NCBI RefSeq assembly: GCF_902459735.1
Contig: NZ_CABPRV010000014.1
Span: 1-64,000 of the forward strand
DNA length: 64,000 bases
Direction: 5' to 3'
Source of the DNA: Pandoraea capi
GTDB lineage: Bacteria > Pseudomonadota > Gammaproteobacteria > Burkholderiales > Burkholderiaceae
The notes beneath the pieces were generated by a model. It was not told the origin of the DNA. It saw only the letters and a program-made list of their open reading frames with translations, and searched no databases. The translations under genes were made by a program, and so were the position numbers. This document shows positions 41,316 to 60,145 of this stretch, one piece after another; position 1 is the stretch's first letter, and each line of letters begins with the position of its first letter.

Positions 41316-41380
41316 GTTTTCGTTGCCCGATGTCGACGTCCATGCGCCATCGGCGCGCCGACTCGCCATCGCGGCATCTC

Positions 41381-41444: not shown

Positions 41445-41532
41445 GATATCGTCCGCCAGACCATGCGCCGTGGCGGTTCTTTTAGTTGGCCCGCCCCAGG
41501 TGCGCCTGGTTACGGCCGCAGTGCAAGGAGAA

Positions 41533-43040: not shown

Positions 43041-43988
43041 TCAGCGCAGACCGAGGCGTCTGCTCTCACGTCGAATCGATTGCGGCGGGTGACCGCACAG
43101 CTTGATGAAGGCCCGGCGCATTCGGTCCGGATCGATGAATCCCACCGCCAGAGCGATCTGTTCGATCGGTTCGCTACCGTCTTGCAAACGCAACCGAGCC
43201 GCTTCGACGCGCAGCCGCTCGACCGCCTTGGCGGGGGTTTCTCCGGTTTCCCGGCGAAACGCCCGCCCGAACTGGCGCAAACTCAAGCTTGCGGCCTGTG
43301 CAAGCCGCTCGACCGGCAGGGCTTCTGCCAGATGCTCTCTTGCAAAGTTCAGGGCGATGCGAATGCGGTCCGATTCAGGCTCCATCTGCGACATGGCGGA
43401 AAATTGGGACTGACCGCCGGGCCGGCGATACGGAACGACCAGTAATCTCGAGACGGCGCGCGCGATGTCCGGACCCATATCTTCTTCGACCATCGCCAGG
43501 GCGAGGTCGATGCCGGAGGCGATGCCTGCCGATGTCCAGATGCGGCCGTCGGCGATGAAAATACTATCGCTCTCGACGCTGATGCGCGGGTAGTGAGACT
43601 GCAACAGCCCGGCATATCGCCAGTGCGTTGTCGCTTTCCGATCGTTCAACAATCCGGCTTCTGCGAGCAGGAATGCGCCGGTACACACGCTTGCGACTCG
43701 CGACGCCTTGCGATTCAACTTCCTCGCCGCGGCAACGTTCCCCGGCTCTCGCATCGGATCGATATCGCCACCCACGAAAATGACGGTATCGAATGCACGT
43801 CGGCCGACCGGCATTGTCTCGATGGGCAGGCCCGTGTTGCCCATCACGGGGCCCCCTGTCTGCGAGATCACGTGAAGGTCATACGGGGTGTGGCCCGCAG
43901 CAGTCGCTACCTGATGGAAAGCCGAAAGGGGACCGGCAAGATCAAGCGCGTCATGACCGTGACAAACAAAGAAGCCGACTCGATGCAT
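43041..43988 (-). CDS. AraC-family regulator with DJ-1/PfpI domain (GlxA type)
   Basis: 315 residues. N-terminal DJ-1/PfpI domain (VGFFVCHGHDALDLAGPLSAFHQ, VIFVGGDID, SVCTGAFLLAEAGLLNDRKATTHW, TSAGIASGIDLALAMVEED). The C-terminal AraC DNA-binding domain has LPVERLAQAASLSLRQFGRAFRRETGETPAKAVERLR and IEQIALAVGFIDPDRMRRAF. It faces the two exported proteins and could regulate them. The effector is unknown. Confidence 0.9.
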   Translation of the reverse strand: MHRVGFFVCHGHDALDLAGPLSAFHQVATAAGHTPYDLHVISQTGGPVMGNTGLPIETMPVGRRAFDTVIFVGGDIDPMREPGNVAAARKLNRKASRVASVCTGAFLLAEAGLLNDRKATTHWRYAGLLQSHYPRISVESDSIFIADGRIWTSAGIASGIDLALAMVEEDMGPDIARAVSRLLVVPYRRPGGQSQFSAMSQMEPESDRIRIALNFAREHLAEALPVERLAQAASLSLRQFGRAFRRETGETPAKAVERLRVEAARLRLQDGSEPIEQIALAVGFIDPDRMRRAFIKLCGHPPQSIRRESRRLGLR

Positions 43989-44112
43989 GGCGGGCAGGTC
44001 ACAGGAAATTCGAGATGGCCTATTCTAAGGGAATTATGGAAAAAGCGTCGCTCAGCCGATGTCGTGAAAATGGCTGTAGCCTCTCATTGACTTATCGGCG
44101 GGCCTCGATGAT

Positions 44113-44364
44113 TCAGAACCGATAGGCGACCCGTACACTGCCTTGCTGCGCCGAGGCGTGCGTCGTGTTGATCAGGCCGTCATAGTTCAGCGACACGTCG
44201 AATCGTGTGCTCAGTCGCATCGTGATGCCTGCGCCCACCGTCAGATATCCGCGCAACGAAGACGCCCAGAGCGGGTATATGTCTGGGCAGGTCAGTCGGT
44301 TGTGAGATGTGTACGCGGACCATTCCGTAATCCTCGAATGATGTGAATTCAGAAAAAGTCGCAA
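44113..44364 (-). pseudogene. Remnant of an autotransporter C-terminus
   Basis: The last ~45 codons read GYLTVGAGITMRL, STRFDVSLNYDGLI and GSVRVAYRF, ending in Phe, as in the final strands of an autotransporter beta-barrel. Upstream of that the frame becomes unlike the family and no passenger or signal exists nearby. It appears to be a decayed fragment. The rest of the 430-bp gap (43989-44418) holds nothing recognisable. Confidence 0.55.
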
Positions 44365-44418
44365 AGTCGGTCCAGCGGTGCGATGACACGAGGCAATCGC
44401 AGAATTCCGGCCGTTAGC

Positions 44419-46533
44419 TCAGAACCCGACTTCCCGCTGCAACACCGCTGCGACGAAGCGAGCCCCTTCTACCGCGAAGCTCTGACGCCCGGCGCCGAGG
44501 TGAACGGTGCCGGTGATCTCGCGTCCGAGCCCGTTGCCGCCGCTGCATTGCCCGAACCGGACTTGCCACGTCGCCGTAAGAGGCACCAACTGGCGCGTCT
44601 TCGCGTTCTGCTCGGCGGGGATGGGGCCGCCATAGGGACTGGCGACCGACGGCGCGTCGAGCGTTGCCACGTTGACCTTGTCGATCGCATCGATCGTGCA
44701 ATGACGCGCCCCCAACTCCAGCAGACTTCCGACGAAGGTGGCCGATTGCCCGGCCTTCAACCGCGCCACGTCGTCCTCGCCGACATAGGCATCCCCCTTT
44801 ACGCCGCCGGGCGCAATGAGGTCGTAGATCCGTTCGCCGCGTGGCAGCCACGTGCCAGCCGCCTGTGCGTCGTCGTTGGCCTGTACCGTCCCCTCAAAGG
44901 GCGCGGTGATGGTCAGTTGCGCGATCTGGGCCTGTAATCCGGCAACAGTCTGTCGGGCCGACTCCCATCGGCGGGCGAGCGCCGTGCCCTGCTTTTGCAG
45001 CCGGTCGTCGAACGACTGTTGCTCGACTTCCCATCGCAGCATCGCTTCGTTTGTCGTTGCCGAGGCCAACTGTGCTTCCAGATCGGGTGATACCAGCACC
45101 GCGAGCGTCTCGCCTGCGCGCACATGCTGGCCGTCGCGCGCCGGGGGTGGCGTGTCGGCGACATACCCCGGGGCAACGGTGTAGAGCCCTTGCGCGCGCT
45201 GCGGCGCGAGCACCGCCGGCGCGCTCACCCCGGCATGCCAGGGCAGCACGAGGACACTGAGGAGCACCGCCGCCAGCACTGCCGAGCGACGCGTTTCACG
45301 ACACCAGCGCAATTCGTCGCGCCGCTGCCACGTCGCCTGCGCCTCGCGCCACACCGGGCGCATGATGAACCAGCCGAACTCGACGCAGAACAACAACATG
45401 CCGAGCAGCTTGAAGAACGCGTGGTACACCACCAGCGCGATCGACATGAACACTACCAGCCGGTAAAGCCAGGTGGCGAACGAGAACGCGATCAGGAAGC
45501 GTCGCCGCGAGGCGGGGCAGGGCTCGGGTTGGGGATCCCCGAAACCGAACAGCCGCTCGCGCAGCCACCAGCGACCCAACGCGAACGCGCGGTCGTGCAG
45601 GTTCGGCATGTCGAGCCAGTCGGAGAGCAGGAAGTAGCCGTCGAACCGCATGAACGGACTCGCGTTGATCGCCAGCGTCGCCACCCACGTCGTGGTCGCG
45701 AGCATGAACGCTCCGGCACGCAGCGGTCCATCAGGCAACAGGCTCCACGCCAGCGTCGCGAAGGCGGCGAGCGCGACTTCGCTCAACATGCCTGCGGCGC
45801 CGATCCAGAGCCGCGCACGACGTCCCGGCACCTTCCAGGCTTCGGTCGTGTCGGTATAGAGCACCGGGAGCATCACGAGCAGCGCAATGCCCATGGTGGG
45901 CACGCGGCAGCCATAGCGCTGCGCCGTGAACGCATGCGCGAACTCGTGCAGGATCTTCGCGAAACCGAGCGCAATCCCCACGCCGATCAAGCCGCGCCAG
46001 TCGCTGTAGTTATGGAACGTATGGACGAACTCGTCCCAGTGACGCGACACCAGAATCAGTCCGATCAGCGCGACGAGCGCCACGACGACCCACGATAACG
46101 GCCGAAAGGCGAACCGCACATAGCGTTCGGCTGCGCGCAGGAACGGCATCGGATGCCAGAGCGGAATCCGGATCATCAGATAGTGCTTGAGCAGCCACAT
46201 CGCGCGCGAGGTCTGCTGCGCGGCGTCGTGATGTTCAAGTCGTGCCGTGTCGGTGGCGTTCGACGACACCAGCAGATTCTGGTGACGCAGCATGCGCACC
46301 AGCGCCTCGAAATCGGCGAGCGTCGCGGTGAGCGTCGTTTCACGATTGACACCCTCGACGATCGCGTGCGCGTCGTCGAGCGGCCAGCGCGCAAGCAGCT
46401 CGAACGCCAGCCAGCCGATCTGGAAAAACCGGTTTGCCGCCGGGTCGTGGAGCATCCATGTCGGGGCGCCATCGGGCGTGGCGGCCCCGGGAGTCAGGGT
46501 GAGCTCCTGACGGAGCTGCGGAAGTCGGACCAT
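44419..46533 (-). CDS. M50 (site-2-protease-like) membrane protein fused to HlyD-like adaptor
   Basis: 704 residues. Residues ~1-100 resemble a PqqD-like winged domain. Next come multiple membrane helices with the zinc motif HEFAH in GFAKILHEFAHAFTAQRYGC and a later NASPFMRFDGYFLLSDWLDMPNL, where the Asp is the likely third ligand. After a last helix (LAAVLLSVLVLPWHAG), residues ~440-690 form an HlyD/biotinyl-lipoyl adaptor: VAPGYVADTPPPARDGQHVRAGETLAVLVSPDLEAQLASA, a coiled coil, and ITAPFEGTVQANDDAQAAGTWLPRGERIYDLI. It is last in the five-gene operon. It could process the giant protein's N-terminus, or act as the inner-membrane part of its exporter (both inferred). Confidence 0.85.
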   Translation of the reverse strand: MVRLPQLRQELTLTPGAATPDGAPTWMLHDPAANRFFQIGWLAFELLARWPLDDAHAIVEGVNRETTLTATLADFEALVRMLRHQNLLVSSNATDTARLEHHDAAQQTSRAMWLLKHYLMIRIPLWHPMPFLRAAERYVRFAFRPLSWVVVALVALIGLILVSRHWDEFVHTFHNYSDWRGLIGVGIALGFAKILHEFAHAFTAQRYGCRVPTMGIALLVMLPVLYTDTTEAWKVPGRRARLWIGAAGMLSEVALAAFATLAWSLLPDGPLRAGAFMLATTTWVATLAINASPFMRFDGYFLLSDWLDMPNLHDRAFALGRWWLRERLFGFGDPQPEPCPASRRRFLIAFSFATWLYRLVVFMSIALVVYHAFFKLLGMLLFCVEFGWFIMRPVWREAQATWQRRDELRWCRETRRSAVLAAVLLSVLVLPWHAGVSAPAVLAPQRAQGLYTVAPGYVADTPPPARDGQHVRAGETLAVLVSPDLEAQLASATTNEAMLRWEVEQQSFDDRLQKQGTALARRWESARQTVAGLQAQIAQLTITAPFEGTVQANDDAQAAGTWLPRGERIYDLIAPGGVKGDAYVGEDDVARLKAGQSATFVGSLLELGARHCTIDAIDKVNVATLDAPSVASPYGGPIPAEQNAKTRQLVPLTATWQVRFGQCSGGNGLGREITGTVHLGAGRQSFAVEGARFVAAVLQREVGF

Positions 46534-46558
46534 GAGTCGAATCGAAGGGCGCGAGGAA

Positions 46559-48010
46559 TTACCAGCCCAGCCACTGACGCGCGAGCGTCAACGGGCGGCG
46601 CAGCACGTAGTAGATAGCGGGGACCCACGGACCGCGAATCCGCGCTGTGCCCATCGCACCGAGCGGGGCCTGCTGTGCGCTTTTCCCGTCGACATCGAAG
46701 CTCGCGCGCACGCGATACGCCAGCACGCCCTCCGGCGTCGGTTCGGCGCGCCACGCGATGGAGTCGATCCGCGCGTCGTAGCTGGTAAGCGGCGAACTCT
46801 TGGGATAGAGCGTGAGCACCGCGCCGGGCTGCACGTCGATGTTGTCGGCGACCGGTAGCCAGGCCGTGACTTCGACATGCGCGGGGTCGGCCAGCACCAG
46901 AATCTTCTCGCCGACGGCCACCGCCTTGCCGGTCCACTCGTTCGGGTCGCTGAACACGGCCACGCCGGCGCGCGTCGCGTTGACGCTCACGCGTGCGAGC
47001 TGCCGCGCCGTGAAATCGAGCTCTGCGCGGCTCTGATCGAGCTTGCCGCGTCGCTCCGCCATGTCCAGACGCGTGCGGTCGTCGGTCACGGCAAGCTGTG
47101 CCGTCTGCCGGAACTCTTCCTGCGCTGCATCGAAGTTGGTGCGGGCCACCGCGTAGCGCGACTGCAAGGTCGTGGCGTCCAGACCGAGCAATGCGGTGCC
47201 GGCCTTCACCGGCTCATTCGGCTTCACGTACAGATGGTCGATGACACCGTCGAGCGGCGCACGCACCACGAACGGATCTTTCGGCGTGACTTCCGCCGGC
47301 GCCAGCACCGTCAGGCGCATCGGTATCAGGCAGATGGCGACGACGGCAATCAGCACACGGCGCTGCAACTTGCCGGGACGCAGCACGGCGCGCGCGCGAT
47401 CGAGCCAGCGCGCACGCGGCGAGAAGGCTTCGAGCGCGTGCGCCCACACTTGCCCGAGTTCGCTCAGCAGGGCGAGATCGGTGGCGCTCCACGGCGTCTC
47501 GCGCGCGAAGACGATACCCCCGGCCGGATGTCCGCCGCGATAGGCCAGCGGCAGCCAGGCGCCGTGGGCCGGCCACCACTCGGCCCATTCCGCCGCGATG
47601 TGTGGTTCCTCTGCTGCGACGTCGTCCGCCGTGAAGACACGCACTCTCGGCTGTGCCGGCAGCACCGCCGCGTCGCGACCTTCCACGTGCGCGGCGGCCT
47701 CCTTCGGCGGGACCTCGGGCAACCCTTTGGCGAGGACCTTGCACAGCGCCCCGAGCCATTGCACGTACGGCGCGTTCGGATCGCTTTGCGGCAGGCCGGA
47801 GACGGCCGCCACGTGACCCGGCGTGTCGCCCCGCCACCACGCCGCCTGCCGGAAGGGCACGAGCGCCAGCGTCTCGTTGACGATCGTGAAGCCGAGTGTC
47901 GTCTCGCTCGTGGCCGCGCGCGCCCGGATCGAGAGTTGCCACAGCAGCGCGAGCTGCTGGCCATCGATCCGGATTTGCTGGGCGTCTTCGGCCATTTGAG
48001 TCTGCGTCAT
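46559..48010 (-). CDS. HlyD-family adaptor with N-terminal GAF-like domain
   Basis: 483 residues. The first ~205 look like a GAF-type sensor (LLWQLSIRARAATSETTLGFTIVNETLALVPFRQAAWW ... WLPLAYRGGHPAGGIVFARETPWSATDLALLSELGQVWAHALEAF). A single membrane helix (LIAVVAICLIPMRLTVL) follows, then a membrane-fusion region: VTPKDPFVVRAPLDGVIDHLYVKPNEPVKAGTALLGLD, a coiled coil, and EKILVLADPAHVEVTAWLPVADNIDVQPGA. By topology the GAF domain is cytoplasmic, so export could sense a signal. It lies 4 bp after the preceding adaptor gene and 25 bp before the M50 gene. Confidence 0.85.
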   Translation of the reverse strand: MTQTQMAEDAQQIRIDGQQLALLWQLSIRARAATSETTLGFTIVNETLALVPFRQAAWWRGDTPGHVAAVSGLPQSDPNAPYVQWLGALCKVLAKGLPEVPPKEAAAHVEGRDAAVLPAQPRVRVFTADDVAAEEPHIAAEWAEWWPAHGAWLPLAYRGGHPAGGIVFARETPWSATDLALLSELGQVWAHALEAFSPRARWLDRARAVLRPGKLQRRVLIAVVAICLIPMRLTVLAPAEVTPKDPFVVRAPLDGVIDHLYVKPNEPVKAGTALLGLDATTLQSRYAVARTNFDAAQEEFRQTAQLAVTDDRTRLDMAERRGKLDQSRAELDFTARQLARVSVNATRAGVAVFSDPNEWTGKAVAVGEKILVLADPAHVEVTAWLPVADNIDVQPGAVLTLYPKSSPLTSYDARIDSIAWRAEPTPEGVLAYRVRASFDVDGKSAQQAPLGAMGTARIRGPWVPAIYYVLRRPLTLARQWLGW

Positions 48011-48014
48011 GCCG

Positions 48015-48872
48015 TCACCGCGCGAAGGTCGCCCAGCCGCTCATGCCCGGCAGTAGCTCGGGCGCGCTGCCGTTGAGGGCGGCCGTCACGTCGACGGTCT
48101 GCGTGACGGGATCGACACGCGCGCCAATGCGTACGACCTTGGCCGGATACGTCTTGCCCACTTCATCGACCTGCACACTGAGCGCATGACCGGTCCTGAG
48201 CCAGCCGAGCCATTTCGACGGCACGATCATCTTCAGTTCGAGATGGCTGGTGTCGACGATGGTCAGCAGCGGCTTTCCCGGCTCCGCGAACTGCTGCGGG
48301 GCGGCGCTGCGCTTCGAGACACGGCCGTCGAACGGGGCCGCGATCGAGCACTTGCGCACGGTTGCCTGCATGTAGGCGACGTCGGCCGCCGTCGACTTCT
48401 GCTTCGCCTGCGCCTGCTGAACCTCCAGATCACCGATGGAGCGCAGCGCCTGGAGCTTGCGGTTCGTCTCGAGCAGGTCACGTGCGCCGTCGGCATCGGC
48501 TTGCGCCTTGCGCAACTGCGCGCTGAAGAGCGAACAGTCGAGTGTGACGAGCGTCTGGCCCGCACGGAAGGCATCGCCGTCGCGGAACGGCAACGACGCG
48601 ATCTTCGCGGCGACCTCGCTCGACACGTCCACCTGATCGCGCGAGACGAGCTGGATACGGATGCGCGAATCGTTGCTGTCGCCCGCCGTGGCGGGCGCGA
48701 CTGGCGACGCCGCCGGCGGCGCGGCAGGCGCATTGCTGGCCGGGAGGCCGGGGACCGATCGCGCCGGGGGGTACGCGACCGGTGCGGCCTGCGGAGATGC
48801 CGCCGAAGCGGCATGCATTGCGACGAGCAGCGTGACGGCAAGCGCTGCCCGGTGATTCACGAACCACGTCAT
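48015..48872 (-). CDS. Periplasmic efflux/secretion adaptor (HlyD/RND type)
   Basis: 285 residues. Signal-like N-terminus (ALAVTLLVAMHAASAA), a Pro/Ala linker, then the lipoyl halves: VSSEVAAKIASLPFRDGDAFRAGQTLVTLDCSLFSAQLRKA, a short coiled-coil hairpin and CSIAAPFDGRVSKRSAAPQQFAEPGKPLLTIVDTSHLELKMIVPS. It would bridge the inner-membrane components and the TolC-like protein. Its ATG overlaps the TolC-like stop (ATGA). Confidence 0.87.
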   Translation of the reverse strand: MTWFVNHRAALAVTLLVAMHAASAASPQAAPVAYPPARSVPGLPASNAPAAPPAASPVAPATAGDSNDSRIRIQLVSRDQVDVSSEVAAKIASLPFRDGDAFRAGQTLVTLDCSLFSAQLRKAQADADGARDLLETNRKLQALRSIGDLEVQQAQAKQKSTAADVAYMQATVRKCSIAAPFDGRVSKRSAAPQQFAEPGKPLLTIVDTSHLELKMIVPSKWLGWLRTGHALSVQVDEVGKTYPAKVVRIGARVDPVTQTVDVTAALNGSAPELLPGMSGWATFAR

Positions 48873-50515
48873 TTCTGCACGGCTCCCGTCGGCAAGGCTG
48901 CTGCAGCGGCAATAGTCGGGCCTGGCTGGGCGAGTGCGGCGGCCTGAACGCCATGCACCGCGATATCGTCCCAGCGCTTCTGTTCCTCGCCGATCGACTG
49001 GGTCAGCGACGCGATGTCGTTGCCGTTGAGCTTGGCCGGCACCGGATCGAGGCCCAGCGTGGCCAGCATCTGACCGTAAGCGCTCTCGAGTTCGCCGTAG
49101 CTTTGATAGAGACGCAGCTCGGACATCATGGCCGCCGTCGCCACGCGGATTTCTTCAAGCTTGCCCTTCGCGTTGGTTACCGTGGCGTTGTGCGTTTGTT
49201 CGAGGATTTGCTGGTCGACGTCATTGAGGCGCTTGAACAGGTCGAACTGACGCGTCTTGGCGCCGAGTTCGCTGCGCGCGACGTGTACCTGCGTGAGCAC
49301 GGCCATGCTCAGCGCCATGCGCTGCATCTTCGCGACGTCGAGCTGCGCCTGCGCCGTGCCGCGAATGTTGCCCGCATTGAGCAGGTTCAGCAGGTTCCAG
49401 CTCACGCTGATACCGGCCGAGCGCCACGCGTTGTATACGAGGAAGCTGTTGCTGTCGTAATGCGCGCCGACACTGAGTTCGATGCCCGGCAACAGTTTGG
49501 CGATCGCCTTGTGCGTTTCGTTGACGCTGATCCGCTCGTTGTAGCTCGCTTCGACGAGTTCCGGGCGACGCTGCAAGGCCATGTCTTCCATGGCGGGCAT
49601 GGCCATGTCGAAGTTCGGCACGCGGAACGCATCGGTCGCGGCGAGCGTGAAGTCGCGACCCGGCTCCAGGTTCATGAGCGAGGCCAGACGCGGCTTGGCG
49701 ACTTCCAACTGATCGCGCACCGCTTCGAGCTGACGCATCAGGTCGAGCAGCGAGCGCTGATAGTTGAGCGTTTCGACCGGCGAGCGCAGGCCTTGCGCCT
49801 GCGTGGCGCGCGAGTCGTCCAGTGCGCTTTGCGCATCCGCGAGCAGCGGCCCGATACGGTCGCGCAGGCGCTGCGCACCGACGGCTTGCCAGTAGGCTTC
49901 GCGCACCTGCTGCATCATCAGTTGCACGACCTTGCGGCGGCGCTGTTCGAGCACCAGCAGGTGATCGGCCTGTTCCTTCGCTTCGAAGTAGCTCACGCCG
50001 AAGTCGAGAATGTTCCAGGACAGATTCAGATCGGCCGTGCGCGCGTTCTTGTCGGTCGAGAACGACGGCACCAGCGATTGCTCACGCGTGTAGAAACCTT
50101 CGGAGGACGACGCCAGATCGTGGTTGCGGTTCGTGTAGCCGGCGGCGGCCGTCAGCTTCGGGAGCAGGTCGAAGTTCGACAGGTCGAGCTGACGTTGCGC
50201 GAGCGCCTCTTCCATCATCTTCAGACGATGGTCGAGGTTGTAGCGAATCGCGCGGGCCATCGCTTCGTCAAGCGTGATCGGACCGGTGACCGGCTGCTGA
50301 TCCGCAAACATGGTGGTGCGGTCGGCTTGTGCCGTTGCCGCGCGTTCGGCATCGGTGAACGGCACAGGCTTGATCGCGCAGCCGGACAACGTTGCGATGG
50401 CGAGCGCAACCGCGAGCAGGGCGGGGCGCGGCAGGCGTCCCTTGATCGGCTTGTTTTTCACTTCGACGGGTCTCTTTTTAAGTTGAGCGAGTTGAGTCTG
50501 GAAAGCTGGGATCAC
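48869..50515 (-). CDS. TolC-like outer-membrane efflux lipoprotein
   Basis: 548 residues. A lipobox-type LSGC follows a hydrophobic stretch (LLAVALAIATLSGC, Cys ~46). Two OEP repeats follow: ITLDEAMARAIRYNLDHRLKMMEEALAQRQLDLSNFDLLPKLTAAAGYTNRN and MPAMEDMALQRRPELVEASYNERISVNETHKAIAKLLPGIELSVGAHYDSN, with helical tunnel segments. The start is GTG at 50515, overlapping the stop of the giant gene by four bases, so translation is coupled. The N-terminal ~28 residues before the hydrophobic stretch are longer than usual; the true start may be slightly inside. Confidence 0.88.
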   Translation of the reverse strand: MIPAFQTQLAQLKKRPVEVKNKPIKGRLPRPALLAVALAIATLSGCAIKPVPFTDAERAATAQADRTTMFADQQPVTGPITLDEAMARAIRYNLDHRLKMMEEALAQRQLDLSNFDLLPKLTAAAGYTNRNHDLASSSEGFYTREQSLVPSFSTDKNARTADLNLSWNILDFGVSYFEAKEQADHLLVLEQRRRKVVQLMMQQVREAYWQAVGAQRLRDRIGPLLADAQSALDDSRATQAQGLRSPVETLNYQRSLLDLMRQLEAVRDQLEVAKPRLASLMNLEPGRDFTLAATDAFRVPNFDMAMPAMEDMALQRRPELVEASYNERISVNETHKAIAKLLPGIELSVGAHYDSNSFLVYNAWRSAGISVSWNLLNLLNAGNIRGTAQAQLDVAKMQRMALSMAVLTQVHVARSELGAKTRQFDLFKRLNDVDQQILEQTHNATVTNAKGKLEEIRVATAAMMSELRLYQSYGELESAYGQMLATLGLDPVPAKLNGNDIASLTQSIGEEQKRWDDIAVHGVQAAALAQPGPTIAAAAALPTGAVQK

Positions 50516-53500
50516 GAGCGGCCTCCCTTCGCGGCGTGCGAGTCGCCGGGGGCTGTCGCGACGTGGAGCGCGGCATGCGCGTTGGCGAACTGCGCGGCAA
50601 GCGATGCCTTCGCAGGCGGCAGCGCGGCGTGCGGTCGGGCGGCAGGTGTTGCCGGCGCGTTCGGTGCATGCGGTGCATTATTCGGTGCGCGCTGAGCGGG
50701 TGCATCGAAGTGCAGCGTCACCTCACGACGCGACAGATTGCCGGCTGCGTCGCGCACGAGCAGCGTCACCTGCATGGAGCGCAAGCCTGCCGGCGGCGTG
50801 CCCGTGAGCACGTCGTGCTCCACGTCGTAATGCAGCCATTGCGGCAGCGGTCCGCCGTCGGCCAGTGTGATCGCCACCTGCGTGTCGGCGGCGTCGCCGC
50901 TGGGTGTGGACGATGGGGTCTGCACCAACGGCGCCATCGAGAGCACGAAGGCCTGCCCCGGCTGACGTGCGGGACTGACATCGGCGGCGGGCAGCGTGCG
51001 TGCAATCGCGGGCGCTGGCACATCGTGCGTACCCGGCGGCACGATGGAATCCAGCGCGCTCACATGCGTGTCGCCGAGCGACGCATCGCTTGCCCCGTGC
51101 GCAGCGAATGTAAAGGTCGTCCGCTGGGGAATGACGCCGAATGGCGCGGGCGTGTCGAGGGCGCCGTTCACGATGATCGGATTCGAGACCCCGTCGCTGT
51201 GGCCGTTGACGTCCGGGACGATCAGCGGATTGCTCTGCCCGAAGACAATCGGCTGCGGCTGCACGTTGGGCACGTCGAAATGATTCGATGGCGTCGGCGG
51301 CAGGATCGGCACGCCCACCGGGCTTTGGCCGGCCTTGATTTGCAGTGTGCGTGACACTGGCGCGCTGTTGGCGGTGCCGTCGCCGATCACGAAGGTCAGC
51401 GTTCGGGCGCCGCTCTTGCTTTCGTTCTGCGTGTCGCGATACGTAATGGCCTGGATGGCGGCCTGCCATTGAGCAAGCGTCGCGGTGCCGCTCGCCGAGC
51501 TGAGCGTCATCACGCCATGCGCGGCGTCGTAGGTCGCTGTGATATCACCCGTCGCCGCGCCGGCGGCAAAGCTCAGCACGTCATGCGCCGGATCGAAGCC
51601 CGAACCGATCGAGACCGTCGCTGACGTCGGTGGCGTGTCGTTCCGGTCGATCAGCGTAATGCCCGTACCGATGGCGATGCTAGACGTCGCCTTACCGTCG
51701 GCCGTGTAGCTCAGGGTCGAGCCGTCCGTGCCGACTATCGGCGTCTGGTGCGTTGCCGTGACGCTCACATCGCGGGTGACCGCGAGACTGGACTTGGCGC
51801 CGTCGTTCACCGAGAAGCTGACGGTGCGTGTCGCCGTGTCGGGCAAGACCGCCGTATCGGTGTAGGTCACCGAGCGCAACGCCGCCTGCCACTGGGCGAG
51901 CGTAGCGCTCGCGCCGGTCGACGTCAGCGTGAGCGTGCCGTTGGCGGCATCGTAACTGGCGGCGATGTTGCCCATCGTCGCACCGTCGTTGACGAAGCCG
52001 AGCACGTCTTCGCCGGCGTGGAAACCGCTGCCGATCTGGAACGTTGCCGAGGCCAGCGTACCGTTGTCGAGATCCGAGACGACGATGCCGTTATCGACGA
52101 CCACCGGTGTCGAGACAACGTTGTCGCCCGCCACGAACGGTGCAGCGCCGTTGCTGCTGCTGGTGAGCAGCGGCGTCTGATCGGTCGCGGTGATGGCGAT
52201 GTTGCGCGAGTAGACGGGGCTGCCCTTGGTGCCGTCGCTGACCGTAAAGTCGATGGAGCGCGTGGCCGTGGCGGGTGAGATCGCCGTGTCGATGTAGGTA
52301 ACGGAACTCAGGGCGGCCTGCCACTGTGCCAGCGTGGCGCTCGCACCTGCGGAGGTCAGGGTGAGCGTGCCGGTGGCCGCGTTGTAGCTGGCGGTGATGT
52401 CGCCCATCGTCACCCCGTCATTGGTGAATCCGAGCACGTCCTCGCCGGCGTGGAAGCCGCTGCCGACCTGCACGGTGGCCGAGGCCAGCGTGCCGTTATC
52501 GCGGTCTGACAGAATGATGCCGTTGTCGACCGTGATCGGCGTCGAGCTGCCGTTGTCCGCCGAGACGAACGAGACCGATCCTGAGCTGACGGAGCCAATG
52601 AGCGGTGTCTGATCGGTATCCGCGACCGTGATGTCGCGGCTCAACGCGATGCTGGACTTCGTACCGTCGTTGATCGCGAAGCTGATGGTGCGGGTCGACG
52701 TATCGGGCGTGATGGCCGAGTCGGTGTAGGTCACGGCGCGCAACGCGGCCTGCCACTGTGCGAGCGTGGCGCTGGCGCCGTTTGACGTCAGCGTGAGCGT
52801 GCCGGTGCCCGCGTCGTAGCTGGCGCCGATGTTGCCCATCGTGCCGTCGTTGATGAAGCCGAGGATGTCTTCACCCGCATGGAAGCCTGCGCCGATCTGG
52901 AACGTGGCCGAGGCCAGCGTGCCGTTATCCAGATCGGAGACCACGATGCCGTCATCGATCGCCACCGGCGTCGAGGCGACGTTGTCGCCGGCCGTGAACG
53001 GCACTGAGCCGTTGCTGCTGGTCGTGAGGATCGGTGTCTGGTCGGTCGCGGTGATCGTCACATCGCGCGAGAACACGGCGCTCGACTTGGTGCCGTCGCT
53101 GACCGAGAAGCCGATGGTGCGGGTGGCCGTATCGGGCGCGACGGCCGTATCCGTATAGGTCACGGCGCTCAGCGCGGCTTGCCACTGCGTGATCGTGGCG
53201 CTGGCATTGGCGGAGGTCAGCGTCAGCGTACCGGTGGCGGGGTCGTAGCTGGCGATGATGTTGCCCATCGTGCCGTCGTTGATAAAGGAGAGCACGTCTT
53301 CGCCGGCGTGGAAGCCGCTGCCGATCTGCACCGTGGCGGACGCGAAGGTGCCGCTGTCGAGGTCCGACAGGGTAATGCCGTTGTCGACGACAACTGGCGT
53401 CGACGGCGCATTGTCGGCGGCGACGAACGACGCCGAACCGGTGTTGCTGGAGCCCACGACAGGCGACTGATCGTTGTCGGCGACCGTGATGTTGCGCGTG

Positions 53501-56500
53501 AGCGTGGCGCTCGACTTGGTGCCGTCGCTGATGCTGAAGCTGATGGTGCGGGTCGTCGTGTCGGGCGTGATGGCCGTATCTGTGTACGTCACGGCTTGCA
53601 GCGCGGCCTGCCACTGCGCGAGCGTGGCGCTCGCGCCGGCCGAGGTCAGCGTGAGCCGGCCATGTACGGCGTCGTAGGTGGCGGTGATGTTGCCCATCGT
53701 ACCGTCGTTGACGAATAACAGCACGTCTTCGCCGAGCTGGAAGCCGCTGCTGATCTGGAACGTTGCGGAGGCCAGCGTGCCGTTGTCGAGATCCGAGATG
53801 ACGATGCCGTTGTCGATCGCTACCGGAGTGGCGATGGCGTTGTCTCCCGCAACGAACGATACCGGGCCAGTGTTGACGGTCGAGGCGATCGGCGTCTGGT
53901 CGGTGTCGGCAACCGTGATGTTGCGTGTATACGCGGTGCTGGACTTGATGCCGTCGCTGACCGAGAAGCTGATGGTGCGGGTGGTCGTGTTGGGCGTGAC
54001 GGCCACGTCGGTATAGGTCACCGAGCGCAGTGCGGCCTGCCACTGCGCGAGCGTGGCGCTGGCGGTGGCCGACGTCAGCGTGAGCGTGCCGGTGGCGGCG
54101 TCGAAGCTGGCGGTGATGTTGCCCATTGTGTGACCGTCGTTGATGAACGACAGGAAGTCTTCGCCCGCATGGAAGCCCGCGCCGATCTGCACGGTGGCCG
54201 ACGCCAGCGTGGTGTTGTCGAGATCCAGTAGCGCGATGCCGCTGTCGATGACGACTGGCGTCGAGATATCGTTGTCGGCCGCGACGAACGGCACGCTGCC
54301 GGTGCTGCTGGTCGAGATCAGCGGCGTCTGGTCGGTGCTCGCCACCGTGATGGTGCGCGCCAGCGTGTTGCTGGTCTGCGCGCCCGCGCTGAGCGTGATG
54401 TCGACGGTGCGCGTGGCGGTGTTCGGCGTGACGGCCGTATCCGAATAGACAACCGAGCGCAGCGCGGACTGCCATTGGGCGAGGGTGGCCGTGCCGCTCG
54501 ACGACGTCAGCACCATCACGCCGGTCAGCGTGTTGTAGACGCCGCTGATGTCACCCATCGTCGAGCCGTCGTTGGTGAAGTTGAGCACGTCCTCGCCGGT
54601 ATGGAGGTTGCCCGAGATCGAGATGATCGCGGTGTCCACCACGTTGCCGAGCGGGTCGGCGACCGACAGGTTCGCGTCGATGGCGACGGGCGTCGAGGGC
54701 ACGTTGTCGCCGGCCACGAAGCTGACGCTGCCGCTGCTGGTGGTCGACAGCGCAGGCGCCGAGCTGATGACATCGATCGAGTACGTCGCGGGGGCGCTGG
54801 TCTTCACGCCGTCGCTAATCGTGATCGAGATCGCGCGAGTGCCGAGCGGCGCGCTGCTGCCGGTCTGGAATTGCAGATTGTCGAGCAGGCTCTGCCACTG
54901 GGCGAGCGTGCCGCCGGTGGAGGTGATCGTCAGGGTGCCGGTGGAAGCGTCGTAGCTCGGGCTGATACCGTTGGTCGGAATCTGTCCCAGGCCGCTGAAA
55001 GACAGCACGTCGCCGAGCTCGAAGCCCGAGGTGATCTGCACCGTGATCGTCAGCGAGACCAATGCGGACGGGCTGCCGATGTTCAGGTCGGTCAACGCGA
55101 GACTGCCGTCGATCGTCGTCGCCGAATTGCCCGGCAGGAAATCCTGACTGGTCGACGATCCGGTCGTCAGGACCGGTGTCTGGTGCGTCGCGACGATGCT
55201 CAGCGACTTCGTTCCGGTGACGCTCGTCTTGGTGCCGTCGTTCACGGCGAACGAGATGGTGCGTGTCGAGCCGTTCGGCACGGCGGCCAGATCGGTGTAG
55301 GTGACCGAGCGCAGCGCTGCGATCCACTGCGCAGTGGTCGACGCGCCGGCCGAGGTCAGCGTGAGCTTGCCGCTGCTGGCATCGAAGCTCGCGGTGATGT
55401 CGCCGAACGAACCGCCGAGCGACAGCACATCTTCGCCGGACACGTAGTTGCCCGTGATCTGCACGGTGGCCGACGCCATCGTGGCGCTGTCGCTGTCGGT
55501 GAGGATAAGGCCGGTGTCGATCGCCACCGGCGTGGACGGCGCGTTGTCGGCCGAAGTGAAGGTGGTCGTGCCGCCGCTGGTGTCGAGCAGCGGTGTCTGG
55601 TCGGTCAGCGCCACGTCCACGGTGCGGCTCCACGCGGTGCTGGTCTTGGTGCCGTCGCTGATCGCGAAGGTAATGACGCGCGGCGTGGTGTCCGGCACCG
55701 ATGAGAAGTTCTGGAACTGGATCGAGCGTAGCGCAGCCTGCCATTGGGCGACCGTAGCCGTGGAGTTCAGCGAGGTCAGCGTCAGCACGCCGTTCGAGTA
55801 GGAGCCGTTGATGTTGCCCATCGTCGTCGGATTGCCGACGAACAGCAGCACGTCGCTGGAGTCCTGCAAGTTGCTGATGGTGACGGTGGCCGAGGTGAGC
55901 GTGCCGTTGTCGCTATCGGATACCACGATGCCACTGTCCACGGTGACCGGCGTCGAACTGGTGTTGTCGCCCTGCGTGAGCGTGACGGTGCCGCTTGAGC
56001 CGCTGATGAGCGGCGTCTGGTCGGTGTCGGTCACGGTGACGGTATCCGTCACGGTGGTGCTGGTCTTGACGCCGTCACTGATGCTGAACGTGACAGTGCG
56101 TTGCAGGGTTGACGGCGTGATGGCGGTCGACGTGTACGTGACAGCGCGCAGTGCCGCCTGCCATTGCGCGAGCGTGGCGGTGCCGGTGGGCGAGATCAGC
56201 GTGAGCACGTTGTTCGAGATGCTCGCCCGGATGTCGCCGTACAGCACCGTGTTGTCGTTGCTGAACGTCAGGAAATCGGTGGGCTGGTAATTGCCGGTGA
56301 TCGTGACGGTGGCCGTGTGCAGCGGGCCGCCGTCGGCATCGGCCACGGTGATGGTGTTGTCGACCACCACCGGCGTGGAGTTGGTGTTGTCGCCCGCCAC
56401 GAAGCTGGCGGTTTGGCCGCCGCCGCCGATCACCGGCGTCTGGTCGGTGTCGGTCACGCTGATGTTGCGGGTCGCCGCCGGGCTGATCAGGGTGCCGTCG

Positions 56501-59163
56501 TTGATCCGGAACGTGAGCACGCGCGTCGCGTTCGACGGCACGACCAGGTCGCTGGTGAAGGTGACGGCGCGCAGCGCGGCCTGCCATTGCGCGAGCGTGG
56601 CTGCGCCGCTCTGCGAGGTCAGCGTGAGCAGGCCGGTGCTGCTGTTGTAGATGGCGGTGATGTCGCCCATCGTCGCCGGGTTATTGATGAGCGACAGTTG
56701 GTCATGGTTGACCTGGAAATTGCTCGTGATCTGGATCGTGGCGCTCGCGAGCGTGGTGCTGGTGCCGTCCGAGATCGTGACGCCGGCGTCGACCACCACC
56801 GGCGTCGAGGGGGTGTTGTCGCCGGTCACGAACGAGGCCGAGCCGCCGTCGGTGACCACCTTCGGGCCGACCGTCACGACCACGCTGTGATGCAATGCCG
56901 CGCTGTCCTTGGTGCCGTCGTTCACCGAGAAAGTGATGTCGCGTGTGCCGCCCGTCGTGCCACTGGTTGCGGAGAAGGTCACGGCGTCCAGCGCGGCTTG
57001 CCATTGCGCGGCCGTCGCGGTGCCACTGCCCGAGAACATCGACAGCGCGTGCGTGCTCGGATTGAAGCTGGCCTGGATGTCGCCGTACAGCGTCGCGTTG
57101 TCGTTGGTGAAGCCGAGCGAATCGCCGGTCACGAAGCCGCTGGCGATGGTGACGGTGCCGGTCGCCAGCGTGGAATTGTCCGCATCGCTGACGTGGACGT
57201 TCGCGTCGACCGCAGTCGCTGCCGAGCCCGCGAGGTAATTGGTGCTGGCCGCGCCGCCTTCGGTCACTACCGGCGTCTGATCGGTCGCGGTGACCACGAT
57301 ATTGCGCGTGGCGACGTTGCTGACGAAGGTGCCGTCGTTGAACGAGAACGAGATGGTGCGCGTGGTGGTCGAGAGATTCGGCGAGGTTAGCGAGCTTGAG
57401 AACGTCACCGATTCGAGCGCGGCCTGCCATTCGGCGATGCTCGCGGTGCCGGCGCCGGTGCTGAGCGTCAGCGTGCCGGTGGTCGGATCGTAGGTACTGG
57501 TGATGCCGTTCTGTGCCGTGAAGTTGAGTACGTCACCGGTCACGAAGTTCGTGATCTGAACGGTCGCGGTCTTCGCGGTACTTGATCCGCCGTCGCTGAG
57601 CGTGATGCCCGGATCGACCGGCACGGGGGCGCCGCCTGTACCGGCGCCGTTATCTGCTGAGCTCCATACGGCGTTGCCGCTGCTGGTGGTGACGGCAGGG
57701 CCGGTGTCCTGATAGGTCAGGTTGTCGAGCGACGGCTCGAACGCGCCGGGGTCGTTCTGGTCGATCAGCGAGAACGAGACGATGTTGTTGAAGGCGCTGC
57801 CGAGCTGACTCGACACGGTGGCGCCGGGGAAACCGCCCACGGCGGCCGTGGCGAGCTGGATCAGTCCGCTTGACGTGCCGTTGGCGTAGTGCGCCTGAAT
57901 GTAGAGATCGCCGTTGAACGAACTCAGATCGAAGCTTTGCAGGTTAAAGGTGTGGCCGTTAGCGAGCGAAATGGTGACGTTGCTCATGGCCGAGCCGCCG
58001 TCGGCATTGATCTCGAGCACACCATCGGTCGACGAATCGGTAATGTCGGTCGGGCCGTTCGGCGAGTTACTGTCGTTGTACGCGAAGGTGTTAGCGGCCT
58101 GATCGAACGTGTAGACGATATTGTTGAGCGTGAATTGCGCCGATCCGAGCGCCTGGAAGTCGTTGTTTGCGGCTGTATCGTAGGTTTCTACGGTCACGCC
58201 AAGCAATTCGTTGAACTGCGCTTCGGCGCTCGCCGACTCGTTCAACGCGCTATGGACCTTGCCGGCCTGATATTCGAGCGTCCAGTTACCGCCGAGGGAC
58301 GTCGCACCGGTAGCGTCGGTCGACGCGGCGACGTTCAGATGCGTAATGCCGGCAATTTTCTGTACCAGCGCCTGCCCATCGGCCAACTGCGCGACATCGC
58401 AACCGTAAATCAGGAAGTCGCCGCCCGGCTTCATTGCCGCACCGATCTGCGCGAGATCCGCGGTGTAGGTCGACAGGCTCGACGCCGTCAGCCATGCCGA
58501 GCCTGCCTGGATCGCACCGTCGGCGCCGTGCGAGATCAGCGCGATCGAGCTAATGCCCTGATGCGTCTGCAAGTACTGAGCGATCTGGGCGAAGCCGTCG
58601 CTACCGCTATTGAGCACGACGTACTGCGTGCCAGTCGGGAAGCCGGAAATCAGCGTCTGGTAATTCGCCACGCTCGGGTCGATAAACACGACCTGGGTTT
58701 GTGTGAGTTGTCCGGCGTCGCTGGTGTCGTTCAGCGCAGCATTCGTGTGAAGCTTTTCCTGCGTGGTGTTCGGCGTGCCCGTGTTGTGCGTGTTCGACGT
58801 GTCGTTGCTGGCAGACGTCGGATCGCCAGACGTGTTCGACGTGTTCGACGTGCCCGAGGCGTTCGACGAGTGCGAGGCATGACCGCCATGCGACGCGCGC
58901 GAGGCGCTGCGATCGGGCGGGGCATTCACCGTGGCATTGCCTGTCGTGCGTGCCGACATATCCGCTTGCGCTTCAGTCGCGCCATGTCGCTCGGCGGCAT
59001 GTGTGAGGTCGTGCGTATGCGATTGGGCGGCAACGGCAGCCACCGACGCGTCGTACACCACACGGGGCTCCAGGGCGAGCAAGAGCGGCGATGCCGCAAC
59101 ACGCGGCGCGTGACGATCGGCACTTTGCTTCTCGCGCGCGAACCAATGTTTGATGATCTTCAT
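50512..59163 (-). CDS. Giant LEPR/DUF4347 repeat protein, likely secreted adhesin
   Basis: 2883 residues, clear AAGGAG upstream of the ATG. No Sec signal. Near residue 32 is ALEPRVVYDASVAAVAA, the LEPR-type motif of giant surface proteins. A His/Ser/Thr/Asn linker (to ~145) precedes DUF4347 (~150-310: VVFIDPSVANYQTLISGFP, ISSIALISHGADGAIQAG, FLIYGCDVAQLADG). One further beta domain follows to ~480, then about 15 tandem repeats of ~143 residues (~485-2609), each with DQTP, DN-x-x-STPV, L-x-SATVQI, GTLTLTS, AQWQAAL, TRTISF-x-V-x-DG. The end has an Ig-like domain (LPQWLHYDVEHDVLTGTPPAG) and a Pro/Ala/His tail. No RTX nonapeptides. First gene of the export operon. Adhesion or biofilm role is inferred. 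Confidence 0.88.
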   Translation of the reverse strand: MKIIKHWFAREKQSADRHAPRVAASPLLLALEPRVVYDASVAAVAAQSHTHDLTHAAERHGATEAQADMSARTTGNATVNAPPDRSASRASHGGHASHSSNASGTSNTSNTSGDPTSASNDTSNTHNTGTPNTTQEKLHTNAALNDTSDAGQLTQTQVVFIDPSVANYQTLISGFPTGTQYVVLNSGSDGFAQIAQYLQTHQGISSIALISHGADGAIQAGSAWLTASSLSTYTADLAQIGAAMKPGGDFLIYGCDVAQLADGQALVQKIAGITHLNVAASTDATGATSLGGNWTLEYQAGKVHSALNESASAEAQFNELLGVTVETYDTAANNDFQALGSAQFTLNNIVYTFDQAANTFAYNDSNSPNGPTDITDSSTDGVLEINADGGSAMSNVTISLANGHTFNLQSFDLSSFNGDLYIQAHYANGTSSGLIQLATAAVGGFPGATVSSQLGSAFNNIVSFSLIDQNDPGAFEPSLDNLTYQDTGPAVTTSSGNAVWSSADNGAGTGGAPVPVDPGITLSDGGSSTAKTATVQITNFVTGDVLNFTAQNGITSTYDPTTGTLTLSTGAGTASIAEWQAALESVTFSSSLTSPNLSTTTRTISFSFNDGTFVSNVATRNIVVTATDQTPVVTEGGAASTNYLAGSAATAVDANVHVSDADNSTLATGTVTIASGFVTGDSLGFTNDNATLYGDIQASFNPSTHALSMFSGSGTATAAQWQAALDAVTFSATSGTTGGTRDITFSVNDGTKDSAALHHSVVVTVGPKVVTDGGSASFVTGDNTPSTPVVVDAGVTISDGTSTTLASATIQITSNFQVNHDQLSLINNPATMGDITAIYNSSTGLLTLTSQSGAATLAQWQAALRAVTFTSDLVVPSNATRVLTFRINDGTLISPAATRNISVTDTDQTPVIGGGGQTASFVAGDNTNSTPVVVDNTITVADADGGPLHTATVTITGNYQPTDFLTFSNDNTVLYGDIRASISNNVLTLISPTGTATLAQWQAALRAVTYTSTAITPSTLQRTVTFSISDGVKTSTTVTDTVTVTDTDQTPLISGSSGTVTLTQGDNTSSTPVTVDSGIVVSDSDNGTLTSATVTISNLQDSSDVLLFVGNPTTMGNINGSYSNGVLTLTSLNSTATVAQWQAALRSIQFQNFSSVPDTTPRVITFAISDGTKTSTAWSRTVDVALTDQTPLLDTSGGTTTFTSADNAPSTPVAIDTGLILTDSDSATMASATVQITGNYVSGEDVLSLGGSFGDITASFDASSGKLTLTSAGASTTAQWIAALRSVTYTDLAAVPNGSTRTISFAVNDGTKTSVTGTKSLSIVATHQTPVLTTGSSTSQDFLPGNSATTIDGSLALTDLNIGSPSALVSLTITVQITSGFELGDVLSFSGLGQIPTNGISPSYDASTGTLTITSTGGTLAQWQSLLDNLQFQTGSSAPLGTRAISITISDGVKTSAPATYSIDVISSAPALSTTSSGSVSFVAGDNVPSTPVAIDANLSVADPLGNVVDTAIISISGNLHTGEDVLNFTNDGSTMGDISGVYNTLTGVMVLTSSSGTATLAQWQSALRSVVYSDTAVTPNTATRTVDITLSAGAQTSNTLARTITVASTDQTPLISTSSTGSVPFVAADNDISTPVVIDSGIALLDLDNTTLASATVQIGAGFHAGEDFLSFINDGHTMGNITASFDAATGTLTLTSATASATLAQWQAALRSVTYTDVAVTPNTTTRTISFSVSDGIKSSTAYTRNITVADTDQTPIASTVNTGPVSFVAGDNAIATPVAIDNGIVISDLDNGTLASATFQISSGFQLGEDVLLFVNDGTMGNITATYDAVHGRLTLTSAGASATLAQWQAALQAVTYTDTAITPDTTTRTISFSISDGTKSSATLTRNITVADNDQSPVVGSSNTGSASFVAADNAPSTPVVVDNGITLSDLDSGTFASATVQIGSGFHAGEDVLSFINDGTMGNIIASYDPATGTLTLTSANASATITQWQAALSAVTYTDTAVAPDTATRTIGFSVSDGTKSSAVFSRDVTITATDQTPILTTSSNGSVPFTAGDNVASTPVAIDDGIVVSDLDNGTLASATFQIGAGFHAGEDILGFINDGTMGNIGASYDAGTGTLTLTSNGASATLAQWQAALRAVTYTDSAITPDTSTRTISFAINDGTKSSIALSRDITVADTDQTPLIGSVSSGSVSFVSADNGSSTPITVDNGIILSDRDNGTLASATVQVGSGFHAGEDVLGFTNDGVTMGDITASYNAATGTLTLTSAGASATLAQWQAALSSVTYIDTAISPATATRSIDFTVSDGTKGSPVYSRNIAITATDQTPLLTSSSNGAAPFVAGDNVVSTPVVVDNGIVVSDLDNGTLASATFQIGSGFHAGEDVLGFVNDGATMGNIAASYDAANGTLTLTSTGASATLAQWQAALRSVTYTDTAVLPDTATRTVSFSVNDGAKSSLAVTRDVSVTATHQTPIVGTDGSTLSYTADGKATSSIAIGTGITLIDRNDTPPTSATVSIGSGFDPAHDVLSFAAGAATGDITATYDAAHGVMTLSSASGTATLAQWQAAIQAITYRDTQNESKSGARTLTFVIGDGTANSAPVSRTLQIKAGQSPVGVPILPPTPSNHFDVPNVQPQPIVFGQSNPLIVPDVNGHSDGVSNPIIVNGALDTPAPFGVIPQRTTFTFAAHGASDASLGDTHVSALDSIVPPGTHDVPAPAIARTLPAADVSPARQPGQAFVLSMAPLVQTPSSTPSGDAADTQVAITLADGGPLPQWLHYDVEHDVLTGTPPAGLRSMQVTLLVRDAAGNLSRREVTLHFDAPAQRAPNNAPHAPNAPATPAARPHAALPPAKASLAAQFANAHAALHVATAPGDSHAAKGGRS
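51337..57709 (-). repeat. About 15 tandem repeats of ~430 bp inside the giant gene
   Basis: The sequence encoding AQWQAAL and DQTP recurs every ~430 bases (for example complements near 51740, 52172, 52600, 53031, 53460, 53890, 54322). Repeats in the 51.7-54.4 kb half are very alike at base level, with long identical tracts around the GFHAGED-encoding part. Those nearer the N-terminus are more diverged. This pattern suggests recent amplification toward the C-terminal half. Confidence 0.9.
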
Positions 59164-60145
59164 GGCAATGCTCTCCTTGCAGCGGCCTGCCTGCCCCAGG
59201 CTAACGCGCGGACAATATCGGGAAGCGCGACTGCGCGACCGGAGTTTGGTGTGGAACGAGCGCGTGCGTCAGCCGCGCGCAAGCACGGGCCGCTGCGCGA
59301 AAATCGCGCCGGCCCGGGCAATTCGGGAGATGCCTGATAGCAGACGAACCGGCGACGATTGCCAGAGACTTCGGCCAGTCGAATGGTTACGCTGAAGGCG
59401 ATGAATCGGCAGTCCGGTCTGCCGTATCGATGACGGTGTCGCCGCTCGGCGAGACGACCGGCATCTGTCCGGGCGGTGCTCTCCGCTCGTTATTTTGGGT
59501 AGCACTAACACGTTACGTTTCCCCAGGCCTCGGCCCTGACGCCCATTCGTACGCTCACGCTGAACTTGTGGTCCGCGAGAGTCGGGCGTTTTTTCTTTAT
59601 GTCGTCGGGCCGCGGCCGGTTCCCCCCGTATCGCGCCCTAACCCCTATTGCAAACACAGCTTCAACTGCGTTTTTCTTGTTTCGGAATTGTTGTTCTGTT
59701 AGAAAAAACAGTCCGAAAACTTTCTTAACTTCGACAGCTTTTTGTGTGCGCTAACTTATCCGACTTTTATGATGGCCGGGTGAAAACCTATAATAAATGA
59801 TAGGCCGTTTTTCCGACGCGTTAGTGTAATCCCCGATACCTGTAATCTGCGCTACCAGAGAATTGATGGCATCTGTTCTGCATCATATTTCAAACATGTG
59901 TTTGAATTGCGTAGCGGGGAAAGTTGCCAGTATTGATGGGGTATTGCACAGTAAAACAAACGCTTAATTCTTGGTAGCTTGAATATTTTTTGAGGGATTT
60001 TTGATTTAAAAGATATTGCGTTAATGGTGAATTGAACTCGGTTTTTTAAATTTAAAATGAATGAAGAGTAATTGGCAGTTTTTGTCAAAAAATCGACATC
60101 GTCGGGTACCTGAGGTAATCGGTTTGATGCGTCGCTGTATCGGTA
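59164..60145. other. Long non-coding region upstream of the giant gene, distal half AT-rich
   Basis: 982 bases without a credible gene. 59164-59640 has normal GC. About 59640-60120 is strikingly AT-rich, with runs such as TTTTTT and AAATTTAAAAT. It contains TATAAT at 59789-59794 (plus strand) and CCTAT-N8-ATAGG followed by CCGTTTTT (59787-59814), which could be a weak terminator. No firm promoter toward the giant gene was found. AT-rich islands of this kind are typical sites for nucleoid-protein silencing. Confidence 0.7.

Follow-up and report, generated by a model that had tools for sequence, protein, structure and literature searches.

A five-gene operon of Pandoraea capi as a candidate TolC-dependent export system for a giant surface protein without an ABC transporter

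The window, the whole 64,000-nucleotide stretch of Pandoraea capi DNA analyzed here (contig NZ_CABPRV010000014.1), carries five minus-strand open reading frames (ORFs) at 44419-59163 that form a compact and intact operon. They encode a giant repeat protein, a TolC-type channel, an HlyD-type adaptor, a second adaptor with a GAF domain (GAF-HlyD), and a third fused to an M50-type membrane protease (M50-HlyD). We judge the chances about even that this operon is a dedicated export system for the one giant surface protein, dependent on TolC and independent of any ATP-binding cassette (ABC) exporter, in which M50-HlyD binds and cleaves the leader and a Sec-type motor drives the process. The computation found a conserved gene set, its domains, a common N-terminal box in the giants (the LEPR box), no ABC exporter over type I cut-offs in the own genome, and a SecA-like gene in clade B, the sister of the clade that holds the window (clade A). 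The genes and their parts are as follows.

50512..59163, minus strand: giant repeat protein, presumed cargo, 2883 residues, with DUF4347 and cadherin-like repeats; same-order homologues in relatives
59047..59073, minus strand: LEPR box LEPRVVYDA, giant residues 31-39, presumed export or leader tag; conserved box in giants
58201..58692, minus strand: DUF4347 domain, giant residues 158-321 (Pfam E 2.9e-54)
51770..54489, minus strand: tandem repeat array within the giant gene, period 429 bases, 6.3 copies
48869..50515, minus strand: TolC-family outer membrane channel, 548 residues, GTG start, lipobox LSGC (Cys46), OEP match 6.7e-29
48015..48872, minus strand: periplasmic adaptor (RND/HlyD type), 285 residues, signal-like N-terminus, HlyD_3, TIGR01730 over cut-off
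46559..48010, minus strand: GAF-HlyD adaptor, 483 residues, with GAF at ~14-200, one hydrophobic stretch, and the HlyD part at ~230-466
44419..46533, minus strand: RRE-M50-HlyD protein, 704 residues
46264..46527, minus strand: RiPP recognition element (RRE; PqqD-like) domain, M50-HlyD residues 3-90, by fold comparison
45934..45948, minus strand: HExxH of M50-HlyD (H196, E197, H200), invariant in 63/63 rows
45634..45666, minus strand: second metal-site motif NASPFMRFDGY of M50-HlyD (N290, D298, both invariant in 63/63 rows)
44470..45246, minus strand: periplasmic HlyD/MacA-like part of M50-HlyD, residues 430-688

By their coordinates, the giant and TolC genes overlap by 4 bases, as do the TolC and HlyD genes, and the later gaps are 4 and 25 bases. 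A sequence-only reading of the window had described five minus-strand genes joined by 4-base overlaps or gaps of 4-25 bp, and all five were recovered just where it had put them. Its three HlyD-type adaptors, TolC-like lipoprotein and M50 fusion agree with Pfam matches to HlyD_3 in all three adaptors and to OEP, with the lipobox, and with the M50 motifs. DUF4347 (PF14252) in the giant scores over its cut-off at 183.7 bits, and the small HlyD adaptor passes TIGR01730 (RND_mfp) with 125.3 bits against 94.9. Beyond the earlier description, there is an RRE-like domain at the N-terminus of M50-HlyD and a GAF domain on the second adaptor.

Pfam scans of all five proteins found no ABC exporter gene in the operon. 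The own genome encodes seven ABC_membrane proteins (18/18 first-look candidates scored), and all seven miss the NCBIfam cut-offs for LssB, HlyB and PrtD. One is an MsbA, one is cyanophycin-associated and two are cyclic-peptide exporters, and for the other three, no family shown is matched above its cut-off. The neighborhood in relatives was surveyed in 80 named loci, which are the best 80 of 589 stretches encoding an M50-HlyD relative at tblastn E <= 1e-3; their flanks end at 10 kb or less, and 47/80 have at least 8 kb on both sides. An ABC match near the operon reaches at least 150 bits in two of them (L140, L172) and at least 50 bits in 10. The ABC gene beside M50-HlyD in loci L055 and L059 was considered as an exporter and set aside: it has two ABC_tran domains and ABC_tran_CTD, ABC_membrane does not appear in the 25 families shown (32 and 39 in all), and it is thus soluble and ABC-F-like. 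The channel and adaptors also fall short of type I models, with the three adaptors scoring 24.1, 20.3 and 21.1 bits against TIGR01843 (cut-off 208.65) and the TolC protein 50.3 bits against TIGR01844 (cut-off 225.15). The claim that the operon lacks an ABC transporter therefore holds up in the operon, in the own genome at type I cut-offs, and in all but 2/80 named loci at 150 bits; relatives, which were searched for the dedicated nearby exporter that would have spoken against it, do not as a rule have one. By the tests made, the system is not type I secretion, and it probably resembles type I at the outer membrane.

The same gene set appears repeatedly in relatives, so the operon is not a chance arrangement. 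Among the 80 named loci, GAF-HlyD is present in 75, HlyD in 64, TolC in 58 and DUF4347 in 21. Where a locus has 4 kb or more of upstream sequence (67 loci), all three partner genes (GAF-HlyD, HlyD, TolC) accompany M50-HlyD in 52 cases. In the window's family, the order giant, TolC, HlyD, GAF-HlyD, M50-HlyD is preserved, with antisense ORFs hiding some genes in the map. A profile search (E <= 1e-40, at most 2 candidates scored per genome) found M50-HlyD in 89/398 sampled genomes of the phylum, in 46/212 genera; with the protein query P0001 at E <= 1e-20, relatives were found in 39/274 class genomes and 23/150 family genomes. The operon is patchy, as 2/15 listed genomes of the own genus are positive. 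By record title, the named loci come from beta-, gamma- and alphaproteobacteria, Nitrospira, Geobacteraceae and further groups, and the closest named M50-HlyD is that of Pandoraea communis (89%). This is a conserved system, widespread in Gram-negative bacteria. The named and unnamed locus sets overlap partly (L124/L099, L125/L104, L128/L112) and are not independent; a slice test with one 400-base slice per locus found no stretches shared between loci.

Plasmids carry the genes as well. Plasmid records with M50-HlyD include 18 from Escherichia and 8 from Citrobacter, and a plasmid-derived M50-HlyD gene occurs in 24/5426 complete E. coli genomes, where plasmids account for 21/25 places. Plasmid pECTOK-001_2 (L203, L213) has a clade A operon with the same gene order, and no ABC gene is among the 17 annotated features of its stretch, the PLSDB gene tables being incomplete. 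The record of this plasmid annotates the DUF4347 part and the Ig-like giant as separate ORFs.

The giants near these genes share the LEPR box. The pattern L[EQ]xR...[DESANT][AG] lies in the first 160 residues of 53/61 distinct giants, the window's included, and in just 39/3322 other ORFs (150-999 residues) from the same loci; giants were counted if distinct, of at least 1000 residues, low-complexity in make-up and with a readable start. Earlier counts with slightly different patterns and limits gave 52/60 giants and 18/3115 other ORFs. Among 61 boxed giants of at least 800 residues, the columns read A (46/61), L, E, P (41), R, I/M, M/V, F or Y (52), D (54), A/G and A/S (54), although selection of these giants by LE.R...[DESAN][AG] fixes those positions in part. 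The consensus is A-LExR-hh-[FY]-D-[AG]-A. NCBIfam LEPR-8K finds residues 27-47 of the window giant at 13.3 bits, below its cut-off of 17. The LEPR-XLL model NF012209 (cut-off 17 bits) is passed by the clade B giants of L070 (26.3), L066 (26.8) and L121 (32.3) and is missed by the window giant (13.3 of 17 bits); it has no match for L055, L120 or the E. coli plasmid protein, which still has the box LESRQLFDGAA. In the loci read, box type agrees with clade (FD[AG] or YDA in clade A, SAD-like in clade B, LDAA in L055, L059 and L071), which is no independent evidence because cargo and exporter genes are linked. None of 51 complete giants has three or more RTX nonapeptides within its last 700 residues.

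Giants and M50-HlyD also occur together across genomes. The co-occurrence check proposed earlier was run on the 274 class genomes: 22 have both M50-HlyD and DUF4347, 17 M50-HlyD alone, 9 DUF4347 alone and 226 neither (p 3.5e-15). This co-occurrence, together with the box, ties M50-HlyD to the giants. The giant is a probable surface protein, an adhesin. A DUF4347 protein of Burkholderia thailandensis, BTH_II1339, is marked "Up" in a proteome table of PMC12322963.

The anatomy of M50-HlyD says leader recognition and cleavage, not energy transduction. Both the HEFAH and the SPFMRFDGY motif are found in the protein, and the catalytic residues are unchanged in 63/63 aligned relatives. In the structure model and the alignment, HExxH and the second-site aspartate lie inside membrane helices, as in M50/site-2 proteases; the fold listing barely tests these helices, and its matches concern the RRE and adaptor parts. 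Peptidase_M50 scores 25.7 bits by hmmscan of the whole protein, below the cut-off of 27.2, and 27.7 bits, just over it, in a genome search that included adjoining stretches. The best curated matches of the M50 part are the daptide HExxH protease NF041824 and YydH/LiaK NF058609, and the window protein misses the 300-bit cut-off of the former with 156.1 bits. Fold comparison gives the N-terminal ~85 residues three strands and a winged-helix fold, as in RRE/PqqD-like domains, and a PqqD domain is detectable by sequence in clade B M50-HlyD. Pfam finds no nucleotide-binding domain in the protein. From fold and conservation, we infer that M50-HlyD recognizes the LEPR leader, and its domains indicate that it probably cleaves it. 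Of two roles proposed earlier for M50-HlyD, processing of the cargo fits the invariant site, the RRE-like domain and the conserved N-terminal box of the giants; replacement of the ATPase finds no support, given the missing nucleotide-binding domain and the separate SecA-like motor that often lies beside it in clade B.

In a tree of 68 M50-HlyD proteins (midpoint rooting; SecA labels assigned by motif, missing L056, L060 and the weak L076), SecA-bearing loci lie in one half, mixed with L062, L066 and L070, and the window lies in the other. Within the class sample, a SecA-like match lies within ~1.1 kb of M50-HlyD at 17/41 places, the one in genome G060 being weak (E 2.7e-27). The SecA-like proteins are ~650-730 residues long, as in these clade B examples.

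L058 6666-8654: truncated SecA-like ATPase, ~660 residues
L121 5242-7215: truncated SecA-like ATPase, ~660 residues

Four SecA-like proteins that were scanned have SecA_DEAD, SecA_PP_bind and P-loop_SecA, with no wing or scaffold family reported. Across 14 aligned proteins, positions 691-833 of a housekeeping reference (which itself stops at 833, at the locus edge) are empty, and the proteins end inside the helical scaffold. We take the SecA region past 690 to be the wing, two-helix finger and C-terminal linker. These truncated ATPases are possibly a new SecA class. Genome G403 carries both operons, one of clade A (L111) and one of clade B with a SecA-like gene (L121). None of ten clade-A places adjoins a SecA-like gene (G000, G194, G119, G100, G162, G238, G116, G224, G235, G153; those in G100, G238, G153 and G235 are on short contigs), nor do any of the 80 named loci. 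Genome-wide, a second strong SecA is present in none of these ten genomes, G100 apart, which has two partial matches on different contigs that are possibly one gene; G235 has no SecA match. The own genome has one SecA match, not the second SecA of an accessory Sec system.

A working model can be put together from these parts, with topology, RRE-leader binding, cleavage and conduit drawn from the domains. The giant would be made with its N-terminal LEPR box, and the cytosolic RRE domain of M50-HlyD would bind this leader, as RRE domains bind the leaders of ribosomally synthesized and post-translationally modified peptides (RiPPs). The second adaptor would place its GAF domain in the cytosol too, and this domain may gate the process. 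Cutting of the leader at the membrane would then fall to the M50 domain, a site-2-type intramembrane protease with seven helices, and the HlyD parts of the three adaptors would connect the inner membrane to the TolC channel, forming a conduit to the surface. A Sec-type motor would power the crossing of the inner membrane. In clade A, to which the window belongs, this would be the housekeeping SecA/SecYEG, and in clade B it would often be a truncated SecA-like ATPase of the system's own. The energy source is the least certain part of this model. A Sec-type motor for clade A is favored by analogy with clade B, with chances about even overall.

Several observations weigh against this model. The clade A operon has no motor gene, which leaves its Sec step to the analogy with clade B, and the clade B loci L062, L066 and L070 have no SecA-like gene alongside. 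The truncated SecA-like proteins of clade B may not act through SecY as SecA does. A Pfam scan of the window M50-HlyD reports no PqqD, and the clade A RRE is seen by fold only. Eight of the 61 giants have no box (L054, L072, L077, L111, L138, L149, L159, L161); L077 has a near box, the start of L149 adjoins masked letters, and in L111 the giant is read as two adjacent ORFs, of which the second was counted here and the first has the box. DUF4347 was not seen in 17/39 M50-HlyD genomes, nor M50-HlyD in 9/31 DUF4347 genomes. Lastly, most LEPR N-termini are not ordinary Sec signals, because their hydrophobicity is lower than that of adaptor-like ORFs: the best 10-residue Kyte-Doolittle mean has a median of 1.71 in the giants (n=61; 12 above 2.2) and of 2.36 in 54 adaptor-like ORFs picked by motif (33 above 2.2). 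The ranges overlap, so the box may yet be an ordinary Sec signal, and the window giant, at 2.24, is near the adaptor median.

Most of these N-termini, as poor Sec signals, would suit a system in which the adaptor/M50 complex moves the giant without ABC or Sec, by the proton gradient or by folding on the outside. ORF clustering of the 80 named loci (greedy ORF caller, figures among the top 26 clusters listed) also found no recurrent ATPase family by the operon, except a histidine-kinase-like one in 16 loci and an ABC ATP-binding one in 7. We still think such autonomous export unlikely: the SecA-like gene beside clade B M50-HlyD suggests that an ATPase is useful, and we know of no site-2 protease that serves as a polypeptide channel. 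It is possible, if also not probable, that the giant exits by Sec and some other outer-membrane route, and that the TolC/HlyD/M50 set trims or releases it, or exports a small molecule or peptide. M50 families have roles in signaling and peptide maturation, the small adaptor scores over the RND_mfp cut-off, and the 17 M50-HlyD genomes without DUF4347 point the same way. However, the giant gene overlaps the TolC gene by 4 bases, gene order is preserved across many genera, and the giants near these genes have a common box.

An ABC exporter coded elsewhere in the genome could also team with these adaptors and TolC as a split type I system, which we consider quite improbable. The seven ABC_membrane proteins of the own genome miss the type I cut-offs and four of them belong to other curated families, the type I models recognize neither the adaptors nor TolC above cut-off, and the complete giants lack C-terminal RTX arrays. 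Further evidence on both sides comes from 31 clade-A genomes (including G193 and G056, whose M50-HlyD lies on a side branch closer to clade A than to clade B), searched with the LssB and PrtD models only, HlyB left out, and with the best 25 or 32 candidates scored per genome. LssB is over cut-off in two and PrtD in none. An LssB-like match of full or nearly full length (E <= 1e-100) is present in 17/31, and this, like the ABC matches near the operon at 10/80 named loci, would suit a split system; in the remaining 14/31, no full-length LssB match reaches E <= 1e-100 and no PrtD match reaches E <= 1e-80. Against these alternatives, we retain the Sec-driven, ABC-independent export of the giant through TolC. 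That it represents a distinct and unnamed class of secretion system is a more tentative proposal, with chances somewhat short of even; such a class would select giants by the LEPR box through an RRE, an intramembrane protease and a TolC adaptor, take its energy from a Sec-type motor, and use a stripped-down SecA in one of its two main clades.

Other features of these loci deserve mention. A phage tail collar gene of 205 residues (Pfam Collar, E 1e-26 for L103) adjoins the giant in 13 of the 26 window-family loci L097-L122, several of which are cut short; an example is L102 16246-16857, and L097 has only a 54-residue partial match. It is also in 9/80 named loci (L132, L133, L135, L137, L170, L179, L195, L196, L200) and is not present in the window. 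The collar protein may be a second surface component. A sensor-histidine-kinase-type family in 16/80 named loci (for example L140 18250-20100) is a possible regulator. In the window, the array of 429-base repeats within the giant gene may differ in its number of copies. Scanning 43900-60100 for the sigma-70 consensus gave zero sites against 1.9 expected. Read by eye, the operon is flanked by ordinary genes, with two DJ-1/AraC-like genes on opposite strands just downstream (41293-42393 and 43041-43988) and LysR-type regulators further away.

The five-gene cluster has seemingly not yet been described as a system. The sequence-only reading had called the route undescribed or little described, and no description of it was found among the open-licence papers listed (subscription journals and preprints were outside the search). 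The Ig-like giants of plasmid R27 were considered as a precedent and set aside, since they exit via the plasmid's type IV system according to PMC8730810; the terms type I, TolC and HlyD had no hit in PMC6764697 or PMC11268884. If our model is true, giant adhesins can leave the cell by another major route, one without an ABC pump, and leader recognition by RRE domains is not confined to small peptides but also serves proteins thousands of residues long. The LEPR box and the DUF4347 giants would gain a function as well, and a SecA-derived motor without the usual SecY-contacting parts would help to test how proteins are moved by SecA.

The system shares parts with several known ones. Its adaptor parts have the fold of the MacAB-TolC and MexAB-OprM adaptors, but by Pfam the operon encodes no pump of the MacB or RND type. 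Like accessory Sec (SecA2), clade B often has a second SecA-like ATPase next to genes for the export of a giant surface protein; unlike SecA2, this protein lacks the wing, finger and linker region by alignment, and its gene was not found in clade A. The RiPP maturation proteases (NF041824, NF058609) are likewise HExxH membrane proteases, whereas the window M50 is far under cut-off, is fused to an HlyD adaptor, and has a giant rather than a small peptide as its presumed substrate. The N-terminal 90 residues of M50-HlyD have the fold of the RREs of lasso peptide B1 proteins and PqqD, yet here the domain is attached to a membrane protease-adaptor and its leader binding is a prediction. Type I secretion systems of giant adhesins, such as LapA/LapBCE and SiiE, are alike in that a single operon encodes an HlyD-type adaptor, a TolC-type channel and a giant repeat protein. 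In contrast to them, the window operon has no ABC exporter, its adaptors and TolC are under type I cut-offs, and its giant has no C-terminal RTX repeats; it has instead three adaptors, two of which carry a domain predicted to be cytosolic (RRE, GAF), and an N-terminal box on the cargo.
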